DNA from: Acidimicrobiaceae bacterium
GTDB taxonomy: Bacteria > Actinomycetota > Acidimicrobiia > Acidimicrobiales > RAAP-2
Assembly: GCA_947455165.1 (NCBI GenBank)
Contig: CANGMP010000002.1
Span: 1-64,000 of the forward strand
Reading direction: 5' to 3'
Length of the DNA: 64,000 bases
Shown here: piece by piece, positions 9,310 through 45,710 of the stretch
Layout of the letters: every line of letters starts with the position of its first letter
Numbering within the stretch: the first letter of the stretch is position 1
Notes under the pieces: generated by a model
What the model saw: only the letters and a program-made list of their open reading frames with translations
Told to the model about the DNA's origin: nothing
The model's database searches: none
Position numbers and translations under genes: made by a program

Positions 9310-9555
9310 ATGGGAACAGAGTGGATGGCAGAAGGCAAGTGCCGGAACTACCCGGCCGAGATGTTCTTCCCCGGCGATGGAGTTGGTGTCATTAAGGCCC
9401 AGAAGATCTGTGCCACGTGCCCCGTAGCGGAGAAGTGTCTTGAGTACGCCCTTCAGAACCACGTCGACCACGGTGTGTGGGGTGGCAAGAGCGAGCGTGA
9501 GCGCCGCCGCATGCAGCGCGCCCGTCGTCGCGGCCTACCCGTCACCAGCCGATAG
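9310..9555 (+). CDS. WhiB-family Fe-S transcriptional regulator (first copy)
   Basis: The track start at 9244 is rejected in favour of the ATG at 9310, which follows AAGGAGGG with ideal spacing. The product has 81 residues. It carries the four cluster-ligating cysteines as C-x(n)-CxxCxxxxxC (GKCRNYP, then KICATCPVAEKC), the GVWGG turn and a basic tail (KSERERRRMQRARRRG) that contacts DNA. WhiB proteins bind a 4Fe-4S cluster and usually partner with the housekeeping sigma factor. The formiminotransferase-like gene begins 20 bases downstream and may be co-transcribed. Confidence 0.95.
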   Translation: MGTEWMAEGKCRNYPAEMFFPGDGVGVIKAQKICATCPVAEKCLEYALQNHVDHGVWGGKSERERRRMQRARRRGLPVTSR

Positions 9556-9575
9556 AGCTAGGACGCACCCGAATC

Positions 9576-10403
9576 TTGTTTGAGTGCGTCATCAACATTT
9601 CCGAGGGACAAGACGAGCCACTCCTGCGCCAGTTTGAGCGCTCGGGTGGCTCGTCGTTTCGTCACCGTCACAGCGACCCCTGGCATAACCGGTCGGTCTA
9701 CACGCTGATTAACGAACGAACCGAGCTACTGCTTGATGCTCAGTGGATGGTGCGCAATGTCGTTGATGCCCTGGACTTGGAGTTTCACGAAGGTGTGCAC
9801 CCCCGCTTTGGCGTCGTTGACGTCGTGCCGTTCGTGGCCCTCGACCCCACCGAGCGATCCGTTGCCCGAGAACTACGCGATCAGATGGCCGCTTGGCTCG
9901 GGGACCTCGGCGTCCCGACCTTCCTCTACGGCGAAGTCAACGGCGTTGAACGCACCTTGCCTCAGGTACGGCGTGAAGCCTTTGTTTCTCTCCAGCCCGA
10001 CTTTGGCCCGGAGCTGGCCGACCCCGAAACCGGTTCGGCCGCGGTCGGAGAGCGCCCGCTGCTCTTGGCCTGGAACATGTACATTTCCGGCGTCGACCTG
10101 GCAACCACGAAAACCCTCGCTCGCGACCTACGCCGACCCGGCATTCGCACGCTGGGTCTCGAGGTCGGTCGGCGACTCCAAGTCAGTTGCAACCTCATCG
10201 ATCCCCTGAACGTTGGCCCCGAACAGGCCTACGACGCCCTGAGTGCCCGCCTGCCGGCCGGTGCAGCCATTGACGAGTGCGAACTGGTCGGACTGGCTCC
10301 GCGGGCCGTACTGGACCACGCGGGGGCCCTGCGTTGGAGTCAGCTCGGTCTGAGCGACGAGCTGACTATTGAACACGCCGTGCGCTCGGGCGCCTCGGCC
10401 TAG
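9576..10403 (+). CDS. Glutamate formiminotransferase-family (FTCD N-terminal-like) protein
   Basis: The 275-residue product starts with TTG at 9576 (FECVINISEGQDEPLL). The motifs NISEG, RHSDPWHNRSVYTL and HEGVHPRFGVVDVVPFVAL align with formiminotransferases, including the His of HPRxG that acts in transfer of the formimino group to tetrahydrofolate. The cyclodeaminase half of bifunctional FTCD is missing, as is usual for stand-alone bacterial proteins. No histidine-degradation genes lie nearby, so a related one-carbon transfer is possible instead of histidine catabolism. It follows whiB closely and ends at a strong bidirectional terminator. Confidence 0.85.
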   Translation: MFECVINISEGQDEPLLRQFERSGGSSFRHRHSDPWHNRSVYTLINERTELLLDAQWMVRNVVDALDLEFHEGVHPRFGVVDVVPFVALDPTERSVARELRDQMAAWLGDLGVPTFLYGEVNGVERTLPQVRREAFVSLQPDFGPELADPETGSAAVGERPLLLAWNMYISGVDLATTKTLARDLRRPGIRTLGLEVGRRLQVSCNLIDPLNVGPEQAYDALSARLPAGAAIDECELVGLAPRAVLDHAGALRWSQLGLSDELTIEHAVRSGASA

Positions 10404-10411
10404 ACGTGCAA

Positions 10412-10438
10412 AGAGCCCCGGGTTGTCCCCGGGGCTCT
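10412..10438. terminator. Strong bidirectional intrinsic terminator
   Basis: AGAGCCCCGGG and CCCGGGGCTCT form a perfect 11-bp, GC-rich stem around a 5-base loop. It lies between the stops of the convergent formiminotransferase-like gene and the second whiB gene, and so probably serves both. Confidence 0.85.
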
Positions 10439-10454
10439 CTACGTCGACTTCAAA

Positions 10455-10733
10455 TTAACTAGCGGCGCTGCGGCGCTCTACGGCGCGAGCTCGGCGCAGG
10501 CGGCGGCGCTCACGCTCACTCATCCCACCCCAGATGCCGAACTTCTCGCCGTTGTCGAGCGCGTACTCGAGGCAGTCCTCACGGACGACACAACCGCGGC
10601 AGACCTCTTTGGCCTCACGGGTCGATGCGCCACGCTCGGGGAAAAAGAGATCGGGGTCAACGCCCATGCAGTTCGCACGGGACTGCCAACCGCGGTTCTC
10701 CAAACCACTCAACAAACTCGTGATGTCTTCCAT
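10455..10733 (-). CDS. WhiB-family Fe-S transcriptional regulator (second copy)
   Basis: The 92-residue protein has the four cluster cysteines (SRANCMGVDPDLFFP, EVCRGCVVREDC), then LEYALDN, the FGIWGGMSERERRRLRR turn and a basic tail. This arrangement is close to WhiB1/WhiB2-type proteins. The ATG at 10733 is preceded by GGGAGGAACCG, a good ribosome site. Two near-adjacent perfect palindromes (10745-10764 and 10766-10781) sit immediately upstream, suggesting tight repression or autoregulation. It is convergent with the first whiB/formiminotransferase unit. Confidence 0.95.
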   Translation of the reverse strand: MEDITSLLSGLENRGWQSRANCMGVDPDLFFPERGASTREAKEVCRGCVVREDCLEYALDNGEKFGIWGGMSERERRRLRRARAVERRSAAS

Positions 10734-10744
10734 CGGTTCCTCCC

Positions 10745-10764
10745 TGACAACAGCTCTGTTGTCA
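10745..10764. promoter_or_regulatory. Perfect 20-base inverted repeat upstream of the second whiB
   Basis: TGACAACAGCTCTGTTGTCA is a 9-bp inverted repeat with a 2-base spacer, ending 12 bases before the whiB ATG and abutting its ribosome site. It could be an operator or, in RNA, a hairpin beside the ribosome site. Confidence 0.65.
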
Positions 10765-10765
10765 C

Positions 10766-10781
10766 CGTTGTAATTACAACG
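10766..10781. promoter_or_regulatory. Perfect 16-base palindrome upstream of the second whiB
   Basis: CGTTGTAATTACAACG is fully self-complementary and begins one base after the previous inverted repeat. Both share GTTGT/ACAAC half-sites, as expected for tandem sites of one dimeric regulator. The regulator is unknown. Confidence 0.65.
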
Positions 10782-10894
10782 ATGTGATTGTTATGCCAAT
10801 TACGACAAAATGCAAATGGAGATGGGAAAACCCTGATGAGATGTGCTTTGCCGGCCGAGCCGTTTTTGAAAAGTCCCAGAAAACTGGGCCAGAA

Positions 10895-11320
10895 CTAGTT
10901 CTGGGGTGCGTAGGCGGTGAAGGTCTGCTGACCTACGGTCTCGCCGCTCTCATCGTTGATGAGACGCATCTGGTACTGGCCGGGTGCGAGGTTGAGACCG
11001 AACCACTTGGCCGACCACACAAAGTCAAGTTCTGCGTCGTGCGTCGAGTCCGAGGCCGGGGTCACGATCTTGTCGGAGAAGCCGTATTCGAACGGGTTGC
11101 CGCCATCGTCACTACCGAGGGCCGGGGTGCCGTCTTCCTTGAAGATACGAATGGAGACCTGAATTTCACGTCCGAGCTCTTCGGGATCGAGGTCAAAGAG
11201 ACCGGCCACACCCATGGGGGTCGGGAAGTTTGCCCAGATCCAGGTGAGACCGCCACCCATGAGGTACAGGCGGCCGTTGTGGACTTCAGCGTCGTCGCAA
11301 AGCAGCAGAGTGGTCTTCAT
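10895..11320 (-). CDS. DUF6941-like small protein
   Basis: The 141-residue protein starts MKTTLLLCDDAEVHNGRLYLMGGGLT after a good ribosome site (AAGGAG). This opening, the TWIWANFP segment and the later beta-rich part (AELDFVWSAKWFGLNLAPGQYQMRLIND) resemble short actinobacterial proteins annotated DUF6941; that family name is from memory. The predicted fold is a single beta sandwich with no catalytic motif, no signal peptide and one cysteine. Function is unknown. It is transcribed on the same strand as the second whiB, about 160 bases upstream of that gene. Confidence 0.7.
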   Translation of the reverse strand: MKTTLLLCDDAEVHNGRLYLMGGGLTWIWANFPTPMGVAGLFDLDPEELGREIQVSIRIFKEDGTPALGSDDGGNPFEYGFSDKIVTPASDSTHDAELDFVWSAKWFGLNLAPGQYQMRLINDESGETVGQQTFTAYAPQN

Positions 11321-45666: not shown

Positions 45667-45710
45667 GACCTAAGGCCGGGCGACGCGCCTGCGTCGCCCG
45701 GCCTTAGGTC
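45667..45710. terminator. Perfect 20-bp-stem intrinsic terminator
   Basis: The arms GACCTAAGGCCGGGCGACGC and its exact complement enclose a 4-base GCCT loop. On the minus strand the hairpin follows the pentapeptide-repeat gene by 22 bases and is trailed by TTTCT. It insulates the two secreted/membrane genes. Confidence 0.92.

Follow-up and report, generated by a model that had tools for sequence, protein, structure and literature searches.

The window analysed here, a 64,000-nucleotide stretch of DNA from an Acidimicrobiaceae bacterium, carries a whiB2-type gene (Table 1) whose leader holds two inverted repeats that had been singled out by a first-pass annotation. Read 5' to 3' on the minus strand, this leader runs TTGCAT-N17-AACAAT-CACATCGTTGTAATTACAACGGTGACAACAGAGCTGTTGTCAGGGAGGAACCGATG. 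The upstream repeat, palindrome B, is CGTTGTAATTACAACG (10766-10781), and the downstream repeat, palindrome A, is TGACAACAGCTCTGTTGTCA, with 9-bp arms flanking a CT centre. The two lie where the annotation had placed them, one base apart. It had called both perfect; this is true of B, a perfect 16-mer, but not of A, which has two mismatches against its own complement. Palindrome A adjoins the Shine-Dalgarno and ends 11 bases, rather than 12, before the whiB2 ATG (10731-10733).

The pair is beyond chance, as had been proposed. Counting inverted repeats with arms ≥8 and spacers ≤4, we found 18 in the window, whereas first-order Markov shuffles gave 7.5 ± 2.6; a pair of such repeats separated by no more than 5 bases arose in none of the 60 shuffles. 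The genome scan suggested for GTTGTAATTACAAC returned one copy in the whole genome, with 2-mismatch copies at the control rate. Several other features of the window deserve mention in their own right. Its strongest inverted repeat by far lies at 45667-45710 and is perfect; its arms are 20 bp long and its loop 4 nt. Upstream of whiB2, where the DUF6941 gene stops, there is a perfect palindrome, CCAGAACTAGTTCTGG (10889-10904), possibly a terminator stem. At 9310-10733, a formiminotransferase-like gene forms the convergence point of two whiB genes, and many relatives have a second WhiB match on the opposite strand, ~1 kb from the whiB2 orthologue.

Table 1. Features of the whiB2 promoter and leader, with positions in the window.
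Feature	Position	Strand	Basis
Controlled gene, whiB2-type (class II Wbl), 92 aa	10455..10733	-	PF02467, 2.2e-27; orthologue in 61/61 relatives
Shine-Dalgarno GGGAGGAA	10737..10744	-	Read in the sequence; same position in relatives
Palindrome A, probable leader mRNA hairpin UGACAACA-GAGC-UGUUGUCA, immediately 5' of the Shine-Dalgarno	10745..10764	-	-8.6 kcal/mol, z -2.2; almost every genus member has a hairpin at this place
Palindrome B, 22-bp extension CATCGTTGTAATTACAACGGTG with one mismatch; holds the BldO inverted repeat TGTAATTACA	10763..10784	-	Sequence, conservation, BldO footprint (PMC5485038)
Predicted McdR/ResR operator AATnACAnnnnTGTnATT, exact match AATCACATCGTTGTAATT	10772..10789	-	Sole match in the genome; present in 37/37 genus genomes; no match for the reversed control; motif from PMC9040748
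Putative transcription start, within the operator, ~7 nt beyond the -10	10779..10781	-	Promoter spacing only
Putative -10 element AACAAT (CACAAT in most relatives)	10787..10792	-	Position conserved in relatives
Putative -35 element TTGCAT, separated from the -10 by 17 nt	10810..10815	-	TTGC conserved in genus

Two regulatory systems described separately in other actinomycetes bear on palindrome B. In Streptomyces venezuelae, the MerR protein BldO has a single ChIP target, whiB, where its footprint covers ~40 nt around a central TGxAATTxCA and spans the -10 and the start (PMC5485038). In mycobacteria, the MerR protein McdR/ResR (Rv1830) represses whiB2 through AATnACAnnnnTGTnATT around the start; EMSA and reporter data have been published, and mutations in the arms of this motif or in the length of its spacer abolish repression (PMC9040748). 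Palindrome B overlaps a copy of the 18-bp mycobacterial motif and contains the BldO repeat. We sought the mycobacterial motif in 61 genomes as an independent test, using, as in all our genome-wide tests, pattern searches with a reversed-pattern control. The source genome has one match, at whiB2, and each of the 37 genus genomes has at least one, which sits at whiB2 in 36; the exception is G024, whose whiB2 is at the end of one contig and whose match is on another. The exact motif is missing in some members of the order, and the reversed pattern has no match among the 61 genomes. Four genus genomes also carry exact motifs away from whiB2 (G005:C50:6473, G006:C1:11856, G008:C101:14451 and G022:C129:1060), and the genomes G021 and G014 (loci L041 and L040) have two whiB2-like copies each, both with operator-like sites, the second being diverged in G014.

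Comparison of the whiB2 upstreams of 36 genus-mates and more than 20 other families of the order finds the core GTTGTAATTACA, in this or a closely similar version, at a nearly constant position, with the genus consensus CACAATGACAccGTTGTAATTACAwCGGTG. This core is essentially single-copy per genome, at whiB2. In many relatives there are two overlapping copies, AATGACAn4TGTAATT and AATTACAn4TGTCATT. In other classes the core is kept in the form GACACnnnTGTAATTnCA, frequently accompanied by another half-site, TGTCATT; examples include the records of Nonomuraea fuscirosea, Thermocrispum municipale and Ferrithrix thermotolerans. Conservation of the operator degrades gradually over the phylum, its form being weaker in other classes, and several distant whiB2 loci have no recognisable core. 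The sequence of palindrome A was found in none of the relatives whose whiB2 upstreams were compared, the nearest included. The check in relatives that the annotation had called for thus divides the two repeats, B being kept in sequence and A not. Taken together, we consider it very probable that palindrome B is an operator of the McdR/BldO type at the whiB2 promoter and that palindrome A is a separate stem-loop of the leader mRNA. The specific regulator that had been postulated is, on this reading, well founded for B, but the two repeats are not tandem sites for it.

The genome encodes three MerR-type proteins: HspR, the product of an FtsR-like gene, and a 158-aa McdR-like protein. The gene for the last lies on contig C33, downstream of gcvH-garA-ftsR-DUF151. 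The order gcvH-garA-ftsR-DUF151...mcdR recurs in most of 80 named loci, including that of Nonomuraea, and in further actinomycete genomes, and it matches the order odhI/garA-ftsR-nuclease-MerR published for Corynebacterium (PMC6683498). The wHTH segment ITYRQLDYWART of the McdR-like proteins is nearly invariant. From synteny, size and the shared site, we infer that the 158-aa gene is the orthologue both of Rv1830 and of BldO, and that BldO and McdR would then be orthologues of each other. Of the sampled genomes, 50 of the 51 that have a whiB2 orthologue also have a McdR-like gene, versus 14 of the 69 that have no whiB2 orthologue, a co-occurrence to which shared ancestry contributes and which is not an independent test. 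No model for McdR came from NCBIfam, and the matches in the PDB were distant relatives of the MerR family only. Several candidate binders were set aside. The gene for HspR meets the NCBIfam HspR cut-off. The FtsR-like gene scores below the cut-off of the FtsR model that it matches, and it occupies the ftsR position. FtsR itself (Rv1828/cg1631), the neighbouring MerR regulator of ftsZ, belongs to the same family and gene cluster, but it has a different target and a different 25-bp motif, AACCCTAAAGTAAAGGTTGAGGGTA, and was excluded on sequence grounds (PMC6683498). The palindromes of BldD, GntR, CopY/BlaI, CRP, MtrA and others were also considered, and were dropped once the McdR/BldO motifs had matched.

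How might McdR act at this site? Conserved -35/-10-like elements, assigned by eye from conservation, would place the operator over the -10 and start of whiB2; a consensus sigma-70 scan found no promoter. These elements would put the start inside palindrome B, and a bound MerR dimer would therefore block initiation, as has been reported for BldO and McdR. Repression thus seems the likely mechanism, judging from the placement of these elements: a McdR dimer would bind over the -10/start region and block whiB2 transcription, and the activation of cell-division genes by WhiB2 would be held back until this repression was lifted. Because many relatives carry two overlapping half-site pairs, two McdR dimers at the operator are also conceivable.

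Palindrome A appears to be of a different nature. Across the genus, the stretch between operator and Shine-Dalgarno folds into a hairpin despite drift of its sequence. Against dinucleotide shuffles, 27 of 37 genus leaders fold at p < 0.05, with a mean z of -2.4, and the mean z is also -2.4 for 24 non-redundant leaders (<75% identity). Other sequences tested in the same way gave values near zero: mean z is 0.07 for 26 further window genes, none of which reaches p < 0.05, -0.19 for the upstream flank, 0.25 for the whiB2 CDS and 0.27 for mcdR leaders. On an alignment of 29 leaders, an 8-bp stem has 83% of its cells paired, versus 28-73% when it is slid, although this count leans towards the stem because these leaders were a chosen subset with similar spacing (the shuffle test took all 37). 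In the alignment 13 cells are changed on both sides and many pairs are G-U; RNAalifold finds compensatory change in 3 of 5 pairs, and column shuffling gives modest support for covariation. Since the slot keeps its structure through compensatory and G-U pairs while the sequence drifts, palindrome A is most likely an mRNA hairpin. The aside in the annotation that the repeat next to the ribosome site could be an RNA hairpin was therefore right, and in relatives the slot holds other hairpins. The signal is weaker in the rest of the order (7 of 33 leaders at p < 0.05) and absent from the leaders of other classes, which points to a lineage-specific element.

Leader stem-loops adjoining a Shine-Dalgarno form a general class, and palindrome A resembles them in its position directly 5' of the Shine-Dalgarno and in keeping structure while sequence drifts; it is not known to match a described family of leader stem-loops. 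The hairpin reaches the Shine-Dalgarno but leaves it uncovered. In a whiB2 leader of ~47 nt, it would most likely set the translation or stability of a dose-critical mRNA, and keeping the ribosome site open or protecting the mRNA are, at low confidence, its most likely roles.

The alternative that fares best is that palindrome A is an inverted repeat arisen by chance and without function. The slot in the nearest relative, L006, folds poorly (a weak hairpin, z +0.6), and repeats of similar size occur elsewhere in the window. The structural signal, however, extends over the genus and is missing from the control genes, flanks, coding sequence and mcdR leaders, so that we regard a chance origin as rather unlikely. 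It is less probable still that palindrome B is an autoregulatory site of WhiA and WhiB2. At its left end, the conserved element overlaps their motif, GACAC (cGACACGc for WhiB2), which precedes the core in about 26 of 37 distinct genus leaders. Yet the window itself has CACAT at this position, and it is the letters ACA-N4-TGTAATTnCA that stay fixed while GACAC varies.

The view of the annotation that A and B are paired DNA operators of one dimeric regulator now seems very improbable. It drew on the GTTGT/ACAAC half-sites that the two repeats do have in common in the source genome, but this sharing is probably coincidental, because B is conserved in sequence whereas A is not and is replaced by other hairpins. 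Moreover, the compensatory and G-U changes in the A slot break the symmetry of the DNA but not the pairing of the RNA. Least probable of all is a role for palindrome B as RNA instead of DNA, in the form of a hairpin at the mRNA 5' end: it does fold as RNA in the source genome, but in the commonest version among relatives, GTTGTAATTACATC, a T-T mismatch breaks the stem while the central loop letters are invariant, and its sequence is that of a published protein-bound DNA motif.

Returning to palindrome B as a McdR/BldO-type operator, its predicted regulator may control itself as well. Across the genus, the mcdR promoter carries a palindrome, AACTACAn4TGTAGTC, that is related to the whiB2 operator, and almost all genus genomes have a single occurrence of the pattern AACTACAn4TGTAGT, located at mcdR, with no match for the reversed control. 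The strict pattern has no match in the source genome, whose mcdR site (TTTACAagggTGTAACTACActtaTGTACTC; AACTACACTTATGTACTC) is an imperfect version; in the promoter there (L173:1119-1212), ACA-N4-TGT units overlap in the manner of the whiB2 operator. The relatedness of the two palindromes leads us to predict autoregulation, with McdR probably binding its own promoter too. This arrangement differs from those described. In mycobacteria, WhiB2 activates mcdR through cGACACGc (PMC9040748), and the mcdR and bldO promoters of the literature are driven by WhiB2 or WhiAB; by contrast, the mcdR upstream stretch here has no GACAC and has the McdR-like palindrome instead. Streptomyces BldO has no other ChIP target (PMC5485038), whereas here the promoter of the regulator itself has a candidate site.

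More tentatively, the whiB2 promoter-leader of these small Acidimicrobiales could be a two-layer switch, in which an old, near-phylum-wide McdR/BldO site is combined with a lineage-specific hairpin. The 5' arm of the hairpin, CGGTG, is common to the right arm of the operator, which might couple transcriptional repression to translation, and McdR would repress itself instead of being driven by WhiB2. If this were true, the feedback loop of Streptomyces and mycobacteria would be reduced to a simple autorepressor and its target.

The locus resembles both known systems. With mycobacterial McdR/ResR at whiB2 (PMC9040748), it shares the exact 18-bp motif, the putative start region of a whiB2 orthologue as its location, and a syntenic putative McdR orthologue; among its differences, the motif has one exact copy in the source genome. 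With BldO at S. venezuelae whiB (PMC5485038), it shares TGxAATTxCA over the predicted -10 and start and effectively one genomic target; unlike Streptomyces, this lineage has no known sporulation cycle. The kind of operator is thus already known from Streptomyces and mycobacteria, and in the genomes compared here it is retained over much of the phylum. In the literature searched, no paper names BldO together with McdR or ResR, none describes a leader hairpin or mcdR autoregulation as a variant of the whiB2 circuit, and none describes the operator in Acidimicrobiia, an absence that is no proof of novelty. A single whiB repressor circuit of ancestral origin, older than sporulation and pathogenicity and extending to small uncultured Acidimicrobiales, is suggested by the operator and its gene-specificity, together with the synteny of the regulator. 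What is ancestral in this circuit thereby becomes testable, and a possible post-transcriptional layer is added to it on whiB2.
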